A stretch of 50,910 nt of DNA from Bacteroidota bacterium (GTDB lineage: Bacteria; Bacteroidota; Bacteroidia; Palsa-948). Numbering within the stretch: the stretch's first letter is position 1; every line of letters starts with the position of its first letter. Below are positions 6,692-32,026 of this stretch, piece by piece. Under the pieces are notes generated by a model, which saw nothing but the letters and a program-made list of their open reading frames with translations, had not been told where the DNA came from and made no database searches. The position numbers and the translations under genes are program-made. The stretch is from NCBI GenBank assembly GCA_016213435.1, contig JACRAL010000126.1:1-50910 (forward strand), written 5' to 3'.

Positions 6692-6881
6692 CGCACGAAG
6701 TGCTCCGAAGGAGTCCCTTCGGAACAACTTCGCGCGTACGCGGTAATTATTGTCGTCTCAGACGACCTGCCATTTGCATGCGTCATAGACGCGCGCCAGC
6801 TGGGAACTGAACTTTCGGCTACCACAAAACTGTCTGCGGAGCACGAAACCCCACCTATTGTAAATGTGCTGTTATATGCAG
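6692..6881 (-). repeat. Distal (tail) element of cassette-like island 1
   Basis: CGCACGAAGTGC...ACAACTTCGCGCGTACG...GAAACCCCACCT...GCTGTTATATGC, paired by eye with 28701-28870. Confidence 0.6.
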
Positions 6882-7757
6882 ATTGATTTGTCGCCATGGG
6901 TTAATTAGTAAAGTAGTTTTGCTGTGTCCGGTGTCTTTAAACTGAACCAAAAAATATGAACTGGTTCTGTTTTGTCCTGCGTGCCGTTTTTATTTTCGTC
7001 CTGTCTTGCGAAAATATACATTAAGTCATTTTTAGAATCGTATTGTGAACGAACAACAGAATAGTCAATGGGGATAAGAAGTTTTTTTATGTTACTACTT
7101 GCGTCAAAGTGATAAAATCTTCTCAAGTCCTTTTTGTTTATTAGACTGTCTTTATTGGTGTCTTCGTCATAAACAGATACTAAGTAATAATTTCTATTAA
7201 TTGGCTGATTGTCCAAAGAGTCCTGTGTAAATGATGGATAGTAAAGTGTCTTAACCAAAACTGGGTGACTGAAAAGATAGTTTCCCTTTTCTAATTTTAG
7301 GTCGTAGTGTGCTATATTCAAAAGATTGTAACCAAATAAAATGTCTATGCCTGGCATGAAGTGTTCATTTGATTCGTCTCCACTTTCGTCACTGTCATAC
7401 GAACAACTTGAACTACTTGAATTTTCAGTTGAACCTGTTGTCGCTTTTGATTTATAAATACTAACAAGTCTATGGTCGCCAAGTCCAGTTAGAATTACCT
7501 TATTGGGAAATGTTGAAATCTGTTTCATAGTTACGTTGCCCGAAACAGAATTTAATAGACTGTCGTTACTACTTGATTGGTCTGCGGTTGAGCTTATAGC
7601 AATTTGTTCTTCGCTTTGTTTGTCGCCTTTTTTGTTGCAAGACATTAGGCAACTTGTCACGAGTAAAATTGTCGAAATAAATAATTTGTTTGTCATTGGT
7701 GTCTGTTTTATGTGTCGTCCTACAATTTGCATATAACTTATATATACCCGCACCTTT
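6845..7757 (-). mobile_element. Candidate cassette-like island 1 (one lipoprotein gene with matched ends)
   Basis: GTTATATGCAGATTG (6871-6885) is inverted against CAATTTGCATATAAC (7723-7737); outer motif TAACTTATATATACCCGCACCTTTT parallels 31297-31320. Confidence 0.45.
6905..7696 (-). CDS. Hypothetical lipoprotein
   Basis: MTNKLFISTILLVTSCLMSCNKK lipobox; ORF track start 7786 trimmed to the signal-peptide Met. Confidence 0.7.
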   Translation of the reverse strand: MTNKLFISTILLVTSCLMSCNKKGDKQSEEQIAISSTADQSSSNDSLLNSVSGNVTMKQISTFPNKVILTGLGDHRLVSIYKSKATTGSTENSSSSSCSYDSDESGDESNEHFMPGIDILFGYNLLNIAHYDLKLEKGNYLFSHPVLVKTLYYPSFTQDSLDNQPINRNYYLVSVYDEDTNKDSLINKKDLRRFYHFDASSNIKKLLIPIDYSVVRSQYDSKNDLMYIFARQDENKNGTQDKTEPVHIFWFSLKTPDTAKLLY

Positions 7758-7766
7758 TTAAGAGGT

Positions 7767-7808
7767 AGGTTCGGTTGTTCCCCCAATCTTGGACGTACAA
7801 CCGAACCT
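7767..7808 (-). terminator. Stem-loop just downstream of the SurA-like gene
   Basis: AGGTTCGGTTGT / ACAACCGAACCT perfect 12-bp stem; no clear U-tract. Confidence 0.45.
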
Positions 7809-7811
7809 CAG

Positions 7812-12370: not shown

Positions 12371-15300
12371 ATGCGACTCATCTTTTCTATATTTGCTGCC
12401 ATGTTTCCCTCAAGCAATAAACACGCTCGCACTTTAACCCTTTTTATTCTTGCGTTATTTCATTTTTGCAATCCTGCATTCTCCCAATCTGTCAAATCCC
12501 GCGCACGCAGCGATAACCATCCTCAAAAAAAAGGAACTACTGTTTTTACAGGAGAAAAAGGACTTTACCCAATTTATAATTATTCTACAAAAACATACAG
12601 TGCTCTTCCTCAAAACTGGGCAATCGTTCAGGATAAAAGAGGCGTAATGTATTTTGGAAATAACGATGGCGTTCTTGAATACGATGGCGTTTCATGGAGG
12701 ACGATTAAAGTTTCCAACGAAACTAATATCCGATCTCTCGCAATAGATGACAAAGGAAAAATCTATGTTGGAGCAGAAGGAGAATTTGGTTACCTCAAAC
12801 CGGATTCATCCGGCAATATGCGCTACATCTCCATGCTTCCCCTTTTAGAAAAGAAAGATCGGGGGGTTTCACATGTATGGAGCACACAGATAACCAAGCA
12901 AGGAATATTTTTCCAATCAGATAATAAGATCTTCCGGTGGGACGGAAAAAAAATGAAAGTATGGAACGCGGAAAAATCATTTCACCGGATTTTTAAAGTG
13001 TACGATCATCTCTTTGTGAGGCAGCGTGAAATAGGACTCATGGAAATTGTGGGCGATGATATTGTAGCGCTGAAAGGAGGAGAAGAGTTTTCAGAAGAAG
13101 GTATTTATGCCATGATTCCTTTCTTGAAAAATCCGAAAGACCATTCATCGCAAGATGTTTTATTGTGCACAAGAAAGAAAGGTTTATATATCATGAAACA
13201 GGTGCCCAAAGGGAACCTTTTGAAGGGAGAGTCGTCTTTTCTGCTGGAACATTTTCGCACTCAGATTGATTCCTTCCTGCTCAAGAACATCAGCTATCAC
13301 CTGCTGAAAACTGATGCAGGATATTCAATTGCAACGATCACAAAAGGATCTGTCATTGTTGATTCAGAAGGAACTCTTGTAAACTTTTTAAATAAAGATG
13401 TAGGGCTGCAGGATGAAACAATTTATTCACAATATATTGATGCGTCCGGAAACATGTGGCTGGCGCTCAGCAACGGCATTGCCAGAGTGGCTATCAATTC
13501 GCCCATCACCTATTTTTCCGGCAAGAACGGACCAGGCGGAACCGTTCAGTCAATTGTAAGGCATAATAACAAGATCTATGTTTCCACAGAACAGGGAGTT
13601 TGTATGTTGCACACAGGCACTGTAACCAATGAAAGTAATCCTACAACTGCTTCGTTCGAAAAAATACCTTCCATCAACGAACAGTGCTGGGATCTGCTTT
13701 CTTTCAAAAGCGGCAATTACTCCTCGCTTCTTGTTGCCTCCAATGGATATATATATTCTATCAATTCAGAAAATAATGTTTCAGCACTCTTTCCTTACGG
13801 TCCATGGACAATGTACCGATCCAAATTTGATTCCTCTCGAATCTATTTAGGCAACGACAACGGCTTTGCCTCCATCTATTGGGATGGCAAAAAATGGAAT
13901 GACGAAGGAAGCATTCCTGAAATCAAGGAAAGTATTCGCTCTATAAGAGAAGATAAAAGCGGAGTTGTCTGGATGGGTTATAATGGTGTAATCAGGCTCG
14001 TTTTTAATAACAGCTCAAAAGGAATACGTAAAAACAGCGATAGTAAATCCTACTCCTATGCGAAGTACGACACCGCATCGGGATTACCAAGCGGAATTGT
14101 TGGGCTCGAAAATTTTTCCGATAAAATCCTTTTTCTAACAGAAAAGGGATTTTATAAATTCTCAACAAATGATTTTTCTCCGGATACGTCTTTCGGCAAC
14201 CGACTTGCTGACGGCTCCCATAAAATTCACCGCATCTCAAAAGATGATCAATCTGAAAATATTTGGCTCGAAACCTATCTTCCGAAAAAAAATAAATTTG
14301 AATTTGGCTTTCTGGAAAAAGAAAAGAACGAAACTTACTCATGGAACACTACTGATTTCCTTCCTTATTCGAATGAAATCATTAATGCGATTTATAACGA
14401 TGACAATGGCATCACATGGTTTGGCGGAGCTGCGGGGCTGTTCCGTCACGATGCAACTGTGAACGGCAGCCACAATCAAACAAGTTCTATTATCCGCAGA
14501 GTAACAACCGCAAATGACGACACTCTTTTCAACGGAACTTTTTTTGATTCCTCCGAAGTAAGTTCACTGATTCAAAACCCATCGCTCCAATCTGTCATCT
14601 CCTATTCGAATAATTCTGTCCTTTTCGAATTTTCTACCCTCGATTTCATCAATGAAGAAGCCGAACAGTATCAATATTACCTTGAGGGATTTGACAACGG
14701 CAAGAACAGCTGGAAGCACGAAACAAAAGCCGTGTACACAAACCTTCCGGAAGGAACCTACACCTTTCATGTAAAAGGAAAAAATGTTTTCAACGAGGAA
14801 AGCAAAGAAGCAGTTTATACCTTCACGATTCTTCCGCCCTGGTACAGAACGTGGTGGGCCTATGTGCTGTATGTGCTTTTCTCAGCAGGATTTATTTGGG
14901 GTGTGGTTACTTTTTTCACACGCGGATTAAAACGCATCATCCTTGAGCGCACCGCAGAAGTTGTAAAACAAAAAGAAGAGATCGAATACAAAAACCGCGA
15001 TATCACAGACAGCATCAACTACGCGAAACGAATTCAGGAAGCCATCCTGCCTCCAAAAGAACTGATGCGCAGCAGGTTTCCGGAAAGTTTTATCCTTTAC
15101 AGGCCCAAAGATATTGTTGCAGGAGATTTTTACTGGTTTGCAGAAAAAGACGGAAGATTCATTGTAGCTGCCTGCGATTGCACGGGTCACGGTGTACCCG
15201 GGGCGTTTATGTCGCTCATTGGCTATTCTCTTCTTAATGAAGTATTGCTTGAAAAAGCATTCACGCATCCCGGAAACGCGCTCGACTCCATGAGAAAAGG

Positions 15301-28700: not shown

Positions 28701-28870
28701 CGCACGAAGTGCAACTTCGCGCGTACGGGGGCTTGTGGGTAACGTTTTGCCGCTTTGCAGTCGGCTGGGAGATAGGACGAAGTCCTGTCGACCGAGACGA
28801 CTGCCGAAACAAAAGTACAAATTTGTCCACCGATGATGAAACCCAGCTGAGGCAAAGCGGCTGTTAGCGG
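28701..28870 (-). repeat. Distal (tail) element of cassette-like island 2, attC-like hairpin
   Basis: TAACGTTTTGCCGCTTTGC...GCTGGG ... CCCAGC...GCAAAGCGGCTGTTAGCGG; stems GCCGCTTTGC/GCAAAGCGGC and GCTGGG/CCCAGC. Confidence 0.6.
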
Positions 28871-28902
28871 TTCGTGCTTTTTTGTCTGTTTGTCCTGTGA
28901 AG

Positions 28903-29133
28903 TCAAGGTTCTTCAATACCGTCAACTTTTTGAATAATGTCTAAGTCGTCTGCGTCAAAATAAATTTCCTTGTCTGTCCGCGATGAGCTGTCAAAGTATT
29001 CGCAAAGAATTTTGTTCTCATCAATGTCTTTTACAGTCATTGCAAGAGCATTGTAAGTAAGCAACTTTTTATTTCTTACTTTGTCTCCGATTTCAAGTAT
29101 TTCCATTTTTTTATTTTTGAATTTAATAACCAC
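28903..29133 (-). CDS. Small hypothetical protein
   Basis: 76 aa ORF, EILEIGDKVRNKKLLTYNALAMTVKDIDENKILCEYFD (SH3/Tudor-like barrel appearance). Confidence 0.55.
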   Translation of the reverse strand: MVIKFKNKKMEILEIGDKVRNKKLLTYNALAMTVKDIDENKILCEYFDSSSRTDKEIYFDADDLDIIQKVDGIEEP

Positions 29134-29199
29134 TATTTTTTACGAATGCAAAAATATAATACTTATTTTTAGGATGGAAAATTATTAAATAAAAAGATT

Positions 29200-30228
29200 T
29201 TATTTTGGTAGTGAAGATAAGGGGCATATCCAAATTCCTTTATTATTAGTAATTCCGCAAAAAATATTTGTTCCTATTATCGCTAATGAATTAACTGAAA
29301 TACCATCTGGCAAGCCATTATTGACAGCAGTCCAATTAGCTCCGTTGTTTGTTGATTTAAAAATTCCACCGCCATAAGAATATGTGCTCTTGTGTGCAGC
29401 GATTGCGAAAATTTCCGAACCATTTGCTAACATATAAATTATTGGAATTATTGCAGTAGAAGATTTATGAGTCAGCGGAGTAGATTCTTTTGGTAAGCCA
29501 GTATTTACTGCTGTCCATGTGCTTCCATTATCTTTTGATAGAAATACACCGTCTTCAAAAGCCCCTGCAAAAATATTTGACCCGATAATAGCAAGGGATT
29601 GAACCCATGTTTCACTTCCATTTATTTTATTTGGCAAGCCATTATTTACTGCATTCCAGTTACCGCCATTGTTAGTTGATAAATATATACCCTGTTGAGT
29701 TCCTGCAAAGATATTTGCTCCGCTTGCAGCTAAAGAATTTATTGTAATGTTTGAAGGTAATCCTGTATTAGCTGAAATCCAGCTACTACCATTATTGGAT
29801 GATATAAATATGCCCCTTTGAGTTCCAATAAATATATTCTCTCCATTTACTATCATTGAATTTACAATAGTTTTTTCTGGCAAGCCATTATTGACAGCCG
29901 TCCAAGTCTTTCCATTATTTGTAGATAAAAACACACCGTCTTCATAAGTGCCAGCAAAAATATTTTTTGCATTTATTGCTATGGTTTGGACAAACATATG
30001 TGTTGAACCTGAATAAGTGTTAACCTTTGACCATTTATTACCATTATCCGTTGATTTAAACACTCCAGGATAATCACCTTTAACTACAACAAAAATATTT
30101 GAGCCACTCGAAACTATGCAGTCAATTTTTCCATCCTCAGAAAAATTAGTTTTTTGCCATTGAGCTTTGCTCGTTTGCGAAAGACTCAGCACTAAGAGTG
30201 CGGAGAAAATTAAATTTTTTGTTTTCAT
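29200..30228 (-). CDS. Secreted BNR/Asp-box repeat beta-propeller-like protein
   Basis: Signal peptide LIFSALLVLSLSQTSKAQ; repeated STNNGKTWTAVNNGLPxxTxVNSLxxxGxNIFAGTxxGxFLS units. Confidence 0.85.
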   Translation of the reverse strand: MKTKNLIFSALLVLSLSQTSKAQWQKTNFSEDGKIDCIVSSGSNIFVVVKGDYPGVFKSTDNGNKWSKVNTYSGSTHMFVQTIAINAKNIFAGTYEDGVFLSTNNGKTWTAVNNGLPEKTIVNSMIVNGENIFIGTQRGIFISSNNGSSWISANTGLPSNITINSLAASGANIFAGTQQGIYLSTNNGGNWNAVNNGLPNKINGSETWVQSLAIIGSNIFAGAFEDGVFLSKDNGSTWTAVNTGLPKESTPLTHKSSTAIIPIIYMLANGSEIFAIAAHKSTYSYGGGIFKSTNNGANWTAVNNGLPDGISVNSLAIIGTNIFCGITNNKGIWICPLSSLPK

Positions 30229-30236
30229 TGTTATTA

Positions 30237-31217
30237 TTATTTTGTTTGAAGTTGTTTATCTTTAATTGTTACAGATTGAAATTGATAATCGTCTTTGTTA
30301 TCAATGGAACTAAAAAGCACTCTGTATTCATTTGAAGAGTTGCTGTAACACAAATTAAGTTTGTGAGTGAACTGACCTGTTTCATCTGCAAGTTGAAACT
30401 CTTGCATATGCAGTTGGTCGTCATACTTAGCTCCTAAAACAGAATATTTTTCTTCCATACCCGAAGTTTCCATTATAAATTCATTTTGTGTTAATGATAA
30501 TGCCCAATGATGAACATTATCGTAACCTCCTTTTTGATTTCTTTTGCGAAAAACAACAACAGGACTTTCAAAAATAACATACTTTATCAAACTATCTTTA
30601 AGTATTGGCTTTGTGCCTTTGGCCACATATTTTTCAGGGTCTATTGGTATGCAATAGTTTTTCGCCTTGGCAGATTTTAATTTTATTTCTTCCCCTTGCT
30701 TCTTTTTTTCATCAGCCAATTCCTGTGCAGTCATATTTACTTCAATCATTTCAATGCTTTCCAAGCAATTTCCTACAAAAACATTTTCCCCTGCTTTGAA
30801 AATTAATTTCTTTACCCCAACTTCTTCAGGTTTTTTGTTTTGAAAGTCGTAAACAGAAAAAGTTTTGTCAACGAAAGAAATCGGTGTCAATTCATAAGTA
30901 TAGTCATTGGTGTAAGGAACTTTTTCTGGATTTTTTAAAATGATTCCGAAACCTTCATTTTTATAAATGTCGCCACGATTTATACTCGTAATCATTCTAT
31001 GATTGGAAAGAAACATTGCGTTACACATATCACCTGAGGTCAGAACTTCATCGGTGACTTGTACTTTTGTTGTCTTGCCTACTTCTAAAATCCATTTTTT
31101 ACCTGTCGGAACTGTTTTGGAATACTTTGTTACGATGACTGTTTTCGGTGTTGTGGTTGTCTGCCCGAAAATTGTAGCAACTGTCAGGGCGAAAGTAACT
31201 GTAAAAAGTGTTTTCAT
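30237..31217 (-). CDS. Hypothetical secreted protein
   Basis: Signal peptide MKTLFTVTFALTVATIFGQ; long ORF. Confidence 0.7.
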   Translation of the reverse strand: MKTLFTVTFALTVATIFGQTTTTPKTVIVTKYSKTVPTGKKWILEVGKTTKVQVTDEVLTSGDMCNAMFLSNHRMITSINRGDIYKNEGFGIILKNPEKVPYTNDYTYELTPISFVDKTFSVYDFQNKKPEEVGVKKLIFKAGENVFVGNCLESIEMIEVNMTAQELADEKKKQGEEIKLKSAKAKNYCIPIDPEKYVAKGTKPILKDSLIKYVIFESPVVVFRKRNQKGGYDNVHHWALSLTQNEFIMETSGMEEKYSVLGAKYDDQLHMQEFQLADETGQFTHKLNLCYSNSSNEYRVLFSSIDNKDDYQFQSVTIKDKQLQTK

Positions 31218-31328
31218 TTTGAATTTGTTTTTTGTCGCCTACTCTTGTGTCGGTTTTCAGCTTTCCCGTCACGGTCTGTCGTTGCAGCATGACCGCTAAC
31301 TTGTTTATACCCGCTACTTTTCACTCCT

Positions 31329-31371
31329 TTATATCGCTTTACCCTCCCAAAAAGGTGCTAAAGCGATATAA
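31329..31371. repeat. Inverted repeat/hairpin
   Basis: TTATATCGCTTTA / TAAAGCGATATAA 13-bp stem. Confidence 0.7.
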
Positions 31372-31500
31372 GGGTGGGCTTTGAGTTTCGCGTTATTTTT
31401 TTATCACTACAAACCTACCCTTTTTTTTCTTTTCCCGCTATTTTCATCTGCAGCAATTCAGATGCGTTTGCAATCTGAGAAAACTCATATAATTTCATGG

Positions 31501-31836
31501 ATGGTTTCCCACATTCCCCCAATGGTTTTCCATGTTTCCCCAATGGGTTGTCATACTTCCCCAATGGTTTTCCATACTTCCCCAATGGTTTTCCATGTTT
31601 CCCCAATGGTTTTCCGCATTCTCATAATGGTTTTCCATACTTCACGGATGGTTTTCAATACTTCACAGGTGGTTTTCCATACTTCACGGATGAGTTTACA
31701 TACTTCACAGATGGTTTTGCATACTTCACGGGTGGTTTTCCATACTTCACGGATGGTTTTGCATACTTCACTGGTGGTTTTCCATACTTCACAGATGGTT
31801 TCACATACTTTACGGATGGTTTTCCATACTTTACGA
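31501..31836. repeat. 21-nt tandem minisatellite, 16 contiguous units
   Basis: Units of the form ATGGTTTTCCATACTTCACGG, each 21 nt from 31501; 17th unit degenerate. Confidence 0.95.
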
Positions 31837-32026
31837 ATGGTTTCCAAAGCGATAAAGCATTCGGAGAATGAAATAAATCATCTGTTGAACTTGGGAAATG
31901 AGCTGTGGAATGAGATAAGTCAGCTCTTGAGTGAGTGGTTAGTAGTCAGTAATCAGTAAAGGGCTCATAAATAGTGGTCAAACAACAACAATCAGCTGCG
32001 CATTGACCAGCAAGGGCAAGGAGGGC

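Follow-up and report, generated by a model that had tools for sequence, protein, structure and literature searches.

The closest described systems to the one reported here are the integrons, which comprise the recombinase IntI and the sites attI and attC and include CALIN elements. The Bacteroidota system that we describe shares with them a tyrosine recombinase, an attI site, an array of cassettes with hairpin attC sites, an exchange point at G|TT, an R'' box complementary to the cassette start, and off-site insertion into genes. In inverted-integrase chromosomal integrons, such as those of Treponema, the integrase gene is likewise oriented with the array, but the integrase used is a canonical IntI. 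To our knowledge, Bacteroidota have generally been regarded as almost devoid of integrons. With IntegronFinder 2.0, a complete integron was reported among Bacteroidetes only in Salinibacter ruber (PMC9024848). Off-site insertion in genes has been reported for attG sites (reference cited in PMC12444791). Delta-attI cassettes involve fragments of attI that lie away from the integrase and move with cassettes, the attI piece replacing the attC 3' of the gene (PMC12901181); our locus resembles them in having a displaced attI with a cassette but differs in that a complete attI-like site lies 5' of the cassette.

Here, we analyze a 50,910-bp stretch of DNA from a Bacteroidota bacterium (contig JACRAL010000126.1; the window), in which an initial annotation had outlined two cassette-like islands. 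We conclude, with a probability of about 0.9, that island 2 represents a single gene cassette, putatively moved by a recombinase at G|TT, and belongs to a Bacteroidota gene-capture system that resembles integrons.

Results

The initial annotation had paired GTTAGCGGT at positions 28863 to 28871 with ACCGCTAAC at 31292 to 31300, and both sequences lie at these positions. On the minus strand, the cassette begins with GTTAGCGGT-CA-TGCT (31286 to 31300; the R' barcode, identified by its match to the cassette's own R'' at 28863 to 28879), and the R'' box contains AGCA-CGA-ACCGCTAAC. Because the start and its own R'' match further along, the pairing exceeds the 9 bp originally claimed. This start/R'' combination is a TCA/TTCG variant that also occurs at loci L101, L111, and L128; it is found in Flavobacterium limicola and in other arrays. 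Along the minus strand, island 2 consists of a hairpin, GCGGGTATAAACAAG|TTAGCGGTCATGCT, three genes, AGCACGAACCGCTAAC, and an imperfect hairpin (AGCCGCTTTGC...GCAAAGCGGCAAAACG|TTACCC), which is the order of an attI-like site, a cassette, and an attC. The core is cassette specific and the same at both ends of each island, as first noticed and as expected of a cassette that can be circularized. The ends are not, however, the two equivalent termini that had been proposed, since they differ in type, one being attI-like and the other an attC. Nor do the genes read toward the conserved tail; those of island 2 run away from the outer motif and toward the attC at 28740 to 28866. The island reaches beyond the extent first assigned to it (28838 to 31320), with its edges at 28740 (attC) on the left and at ~31404 (the hairpin of the attI-like site) on the right.

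The attI-like site (31297 to 31404, minus strand) contains a hairpin, formed by 31329 to 31341 and 31359 to 31371, followed by GCGGGTATAAACAAG|TTA, and its predicted exchange point lies between G31300 and T31299. A covariance model of attI (R2), trained on recombinase-linked sites from other genomes, matches exactly positions 31404 to 31297, with a modest score of 25 bits (E = 0.02 over 164 kb). At the other end, the 127-nt attC (28740 to 28866, minus strand) reads TAAC-L''(AGCCGCTTTGC..)...L'(GCAAAGCGGC)AAAACG|TTA and adjoins the R'' box AAGCACGAACCGCTAAC (28863 to 28879, minus strand), the partner of the cassette start. This is a folded R''-L''..L'-R' site at the cassette end: a covariance model of attC (R1), built from 41 attCs of other genomes with the window outside the training set, scores it at 58.5 bits (E = 4.3e-10), while the next-best match in the window reaches only E = 0.08, and its fold is far better than those of shuffled sequences (z = -4). 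Covariance modeling of both termini was a check that the initial annotation had suggested.

The cassette itself (28743 to 31299, minus strand), delimited by G|TT and the end of the attC, spans 2,557 bp and carries three genes directed from the attI-like site to the attC. The first (30237 to 31217, minus strand) encodes 326 aa with a signal-peptide-like start and no Pfam family, the second (29200 to 30228, minus strand) a 342-aa exported BNR/sortilin-type repeat protein (PF15902, E = 1e-14), and the third (28903 to 29133, minus strand) 67 to 76 aa, again without a Pfam family. Among the fetched loci, we found no homologues of genes 1 and 3 and only distant ones of gene 2. With three genes in 2.6 kb, against a median of ~0.8 kb, island 2 is big for a cassette. 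A clean empty site for it was not found in relatives because the neighborhood is rearranged there. Between an NTP transferase gene and the attI-like site of island 2, positions 31452 to 31868 are filled by 21-bp units (CCAATGGTTTTCCATACTTCC-like) in tandem. In G001, a genome of the same genus, repeats of another kind (L049, ~12400 to 13300) lie ahead of a truncated recombinase.

The same boundary rule was found elsewhere. Among recombinase-linked attI loci, 55 had sufficient sequence downstream; in 39 of these, the nine bases that start at G|TT find a perfect (9/9) complement at a downstream AAC, compared with 1.5% after starts and arrays had been exchanged. Chaining yielded 83 cassettes in 35 arrays, in which pairing between the start and its own R'' spans 15 positions. 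A mismatch is nearly fixed at position 11 (73/83), where the start has A and the R'' has C (A versus G); positions 12 to 15, which played no part in the cassette search, pair at ~82 to 92%, and positions 16 and 17 are random. Whereas an R'' matches its own start over 15 nt, it fits the neighboring cassette only at GTTR, from which we infer that the full stem is possible only in the excised circle. A 7-bp R box consensus common to cassettes (RYYYAAC/GTTRRRY) is not met; the common part is GTTR, and the 15-nt barcode is private. Of 80 cassettes, 72 have a longest open reading frame that points away from attI. On the bottom strand, the top-strand A/C mismatch would be a G/T wobble, which is no more than suggestive of bottom-strand attC recombination.

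Across the 718 kb that surround 80 recombinase loci, the attC model gave 113 matches at E ≤ 0.001, including the 41 of its training set. Strand and side relative to the recombinase served as the control: 112 matches lay downstream and one upstream, and the opposite strand had none. The class, taken as Bacteroidia by inference from named recombinase relatives, was sampled evenly; of the 295 genomes in this sample, 202 had attCs at E ≤ 1e-4, although these E-values are rough (short-calibrated models). Within the genus, there are 56 attCs in G003 and 50 in G004; the window's own genome (G000) has eight, spread over eight contigs and in several cases located at the end of a contig. The contigs of G003 and G004 (L226 to L234), with at least 50 attCs for each genome, have content of superintegron size, and no close recombinase was detected in G003.

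One clade of recombinases sits 5' of attI and attC arrays across Bacteroidota. A search of 84,980 species genomes with a recombinase alignment gave at least 575 relatives, and 79 of the 80 fetched loci are classified as Bacteroidota (Flavobacterium, Chitinophaga, Saprospiraceae, Algoriphagus, Polaribacter, Bacteroidales, and others). The common downstream architecture is a hairpin followed by TATANACNAG|TTR; an attI-like motif comes soon after the stop codon in 67 loci, mostly within 60 to 115 bp, and the first cassette is paired in most. The attI hairpin has compensatory arm changes at 7/7 predicted pairs, and a third copy of the arm is able to pair with the second arm instead. For this clade, attI lies beside the integrase gene and receives the first cassette; this does not hold at the window, where no recombinase adjoins. 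The array recombinases conserve the catalytic motifs R, K, HxxR, H, and Y, and a predicted structure resembles XerA and IntI4 (mean pLDDT, 84; pTM, 0.53, with the relative placement of domains uncertain). They possess an N-terminal domain of ~75 residues that is missing from IntI. The best match of this domain to the HARP family (E = 0.036, in one member) is below the Pfam threshold and is only a hint; the domain is seemingly duplicated in the recombinases of L107, L127, and L157. In a tree of 48 proteins, the array recombinases fall on one side of a branch, apart from IntI and Xer, in 98% of bootstrap trees, with only three IntI and two Xer proteins as references.

These properties bear on whether island 2 could be a cassette of a canonical IntI-type integron, a CALIN remnant of the known class. 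The common logic of attI, attC hairpin, G|TT exchange, and cassettes fits such an origin, but the array recombinases score 185 to 216 bits against the IntI family profile (TIGR02249), below its cut-off of 265, and lack the IntI-specific insertion: 24 residues lie between the catalytic boxes, 43 fewer than the 67 of IntI4 (2a3v), and profile positions ~180 to 240 are unmatched. Likewise, the R boxes are 15 nt long and cassette specific rather than of the 7-bp GTTRRRY type. A canonical integrase above the cut-off is present in 1 of the 295 Bacteroidia genomes, which is not among the attC carriers listed, and none was above the cut-off in the window's genome. We therefore regard a canonical origin as very unlikely.

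The outer motif TAACTTNTNTATACCCGC has exactly two copies in the 3.70-Mb genome, both of them in the window, with no match for the reversed control; at ≤3 mismatches there are three matches in the window, a number reached by 0 of 100 shuffles. The genome-wide search proposed by the initial annotation thus confines the exact motif to the two islands, whose outer ends are parallel as claimed. At ≤1 mismatch, the motif occurs in 5 of 7 genomes of the genus, the G003 copy lying in a context that is not attI-like. In G002 and G001, it is found ~120 bp 3' of the stop codon of a co-oriented tyrosine recombinase gene and is followed by cassettes. The G001 cassette has the start GTTATGCCCA-A-TTAT, the R'' GTTATGCCCAGTTAT, and an attC; in G002, attCs lie further along the array; and a related attI, GC.TATAACNAGTTA, follows the recombinases of three genus members. 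The reading of the ends as a paired recombination site of a cassette was therefore right in substance, a tyrosine recombinase adjoining the same outer motif in relatives. No recombinase of the array clade was found, however, in the window or in its 97%-complete assembly, nor were remnants of one found in the window, and islands 1 and 2 are thus orphan attI-cassette units; the origin of an attI without a recombinase is unexplained. The outcome named in advance as refuting a cassette, that the motif is a promoter of ordinary genes without a distal partner, did not materialize, and a promoter-only reading is ruled out by the paired ends.

Island 1 comprises an attI-like site (7734 to 7811, minus strand) with a hairpin at 7767 to 7808 and GCGGGTATATATAAG|TTA, a cassette (6871 to 7736, minus strand) with one gene (~262 aa), and the 5' half of an attC (6804 to 6881, minus strand; recognized by identity to other attCs), the 3' half being lost. 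Its start, GTTATATGCA-A-ATTG, and its R'', CAAT-C-TGCATATAAC (6871 to 6885, minus strand), obey the boundary rule exactly, with G at position 11 in the partner. When the window was scanned blindly on both strands for the full rule (nine pairs, the A/C mismatch, and four pairs), this was the only pair, and a rough estimate of the number expected by chance is ~0.003. The half-attC is 96% identical over 78 nt to an attC on another contig of the same genome (C92) and 90% identical to attCs of Flavobacterium xanthum and F. luteum. The PPIase and MoxR-type genes that flank island 1 are adjacent (0 to 66 bp) in 6/6 relatives. Comparison of orthologous sites, as had been advised, thus finds an empty junction, with the island, including hairpin and motif, missing from all six, and we conclude that the attI-like site came together with the cassette. 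That this attI is the remnant of a fixed chromosomal site is excluded, since both hairpin and motif are missing from the relatives.

On contig C24 of this genome, a third orphan attI follows a truncated EcoO109I-like endonuclease gene, and further orphan attI sites are present in G005 and G001. The orphan attI units at 31297 to 31404, at 7734 to 7811, and near 10302 on C24 have their left edge at TAAC (GTTA on the opposite strand), as if the attI-cassette unit itself had gone into a G|TTA site. On another contig (C163; L212, 748 to 1702), a 955-bp cassette lies within an acylphosphatase gene, and rejoining the flanks gives a full reading frame, which fixes the cassette boundaries, G|TT and attC-G, without any model and indicates past activity beyond attI. 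The R'' barcode of this cassette is also found on a G002 contig (C285).

The absence of the whole of island 1 from six relatives, attI-like site included, and the left junctions at TAAC in three cases (islands 1 and 2 and the C24 unit in the truncated EcoO109I-like gene) could also be accommodated by a transposon-like unit with matched ends, served by a transposase in trans. Such a unit is hard to reconcile with ends that differ in site type, with cassette-specific cores, and with the same attI following recombinase genes and then leading into multicassette arrays, and we consider it very unlikely. An ordinary operon with a conserved promoter/terminator motif and a chance inverted repeat can for practical purposes be set aside: a gene-end hairpin can resemble a terminator, but the motif is unique to the islands genome-wide, and neither the attC model match (E = 4e-10) nor the paired-end statistics fit.

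Cassettes of the same kind were found with tet(X) genes. On the Empedobacter brevis plasmid pSE1-3-20kb (L246, 1977 to 5081), three consecutive cassettes that follow the start/R'' rule carry catB, tet(X2), and a gene of hypothetical function, respectively. The tet(X2) start, GTTATGTGCC-A-TTTT, and R'', AAAA-C-GGCACATAAC, form a perfect pair with an attC behind; by sequence description alone, without functional data, the tet(X2) unit counts as a perfect cassette within the Bacteroidota system. The xerD-tet(X) context is known on Acinetobacter plasmids (PMC11615727). On Acinetobacter pittii pAB17H194-1 (L244, 1144 to 1999), the xerD gene that neighbors tet(X5) groups with the array recombinases, and the gap between the two genes contains a TATATTTG box together with an attI-like hairpin and a rule-obeying tet(X) cassette start, the same as that of tet(X2). 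This plasmid resembles the Bacteroidota system in its clade recombinase, attI-like site, and cassette start but differs in that the attC end of the tet(X) cassette was not found in it. The linkage looks like a recombinase-attI-first cassette whose attC end has been lost.

Discussion

Island 2 works like an integron cassette but fails two definitions of the family, IntI and the 7-bp R box; since neither is met, it stands outside the integron family so defined, though integron-like in its working. Neither this nor the movement of the cassette is backed by experimental recombination data. Besides its shorter recombinase core and extra N-terminal domain, the Bacteroidota system differs from known integrons in that the recombinase gene lies 5' of attI in the same direction, the attI is a three-box hairpin, each cassette has 15-nt R boxes of its own in which the A/C mismatch is fixed, and the system is present throughout Bacteroidia. 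We found no Bacteroidota integron of this type in the openly accessible literature (subscription papers and preprints were outside our scope), and priority of discovery is not established.

The boundary anatomy, the attC, the attI-like site, their phylum-wide conservation, the linkage of attI and arrays to one recombinase clade, and one precise intragenic insertion are direct observations, and from them we infer the following mechanism. A recombinase of the clade, acting in trans or before its loss, would join a circular cassette to attI at G|TT, with the folded bottom strand of the cassette attC and double-stranded attI as the putative substrates. The 5' barcode of the cassette would turn into R', its 15-nt pairing with its own R'' existing only in the excised circle, such that in the array only GTTR would still pair. 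The cassette genes would then be read from the attI side. Island 1 may have been frozen through the loss of half its attC.

A more far-reaching hypothesis, which we advance tentatively and which falls somewhat short of even odds, is that of a separately evolved integron class of Bacteroidota. Here, a Xer-like recombinase with its own, faintly HARP-like N-terminal domain would recognize attC hairpins, barcode pairing only in the circle would bias the reaction to integration, attI-cassette units would disseminate and act as orphan docking sites served in trans, and the cassette pool would be a source of tet(X)-type mobile resistance genes.

If our interpretation of island 2 is true, about two-thirds of the sampled Bacteroidia genomes, including some with at least 50 attC sites, have a gene-capture system that would be missed by current criteria based on the IntI profile and its extra domain. 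The recombinase would represent a second natural solution for handling a folded attC, without the special insertion of IntI. The private barcode with its A/C mismatch would provide a built-in marker to find cassettes, and the linkage of xerD and tet(X) in tigecycline resistance would have a testable explanation.
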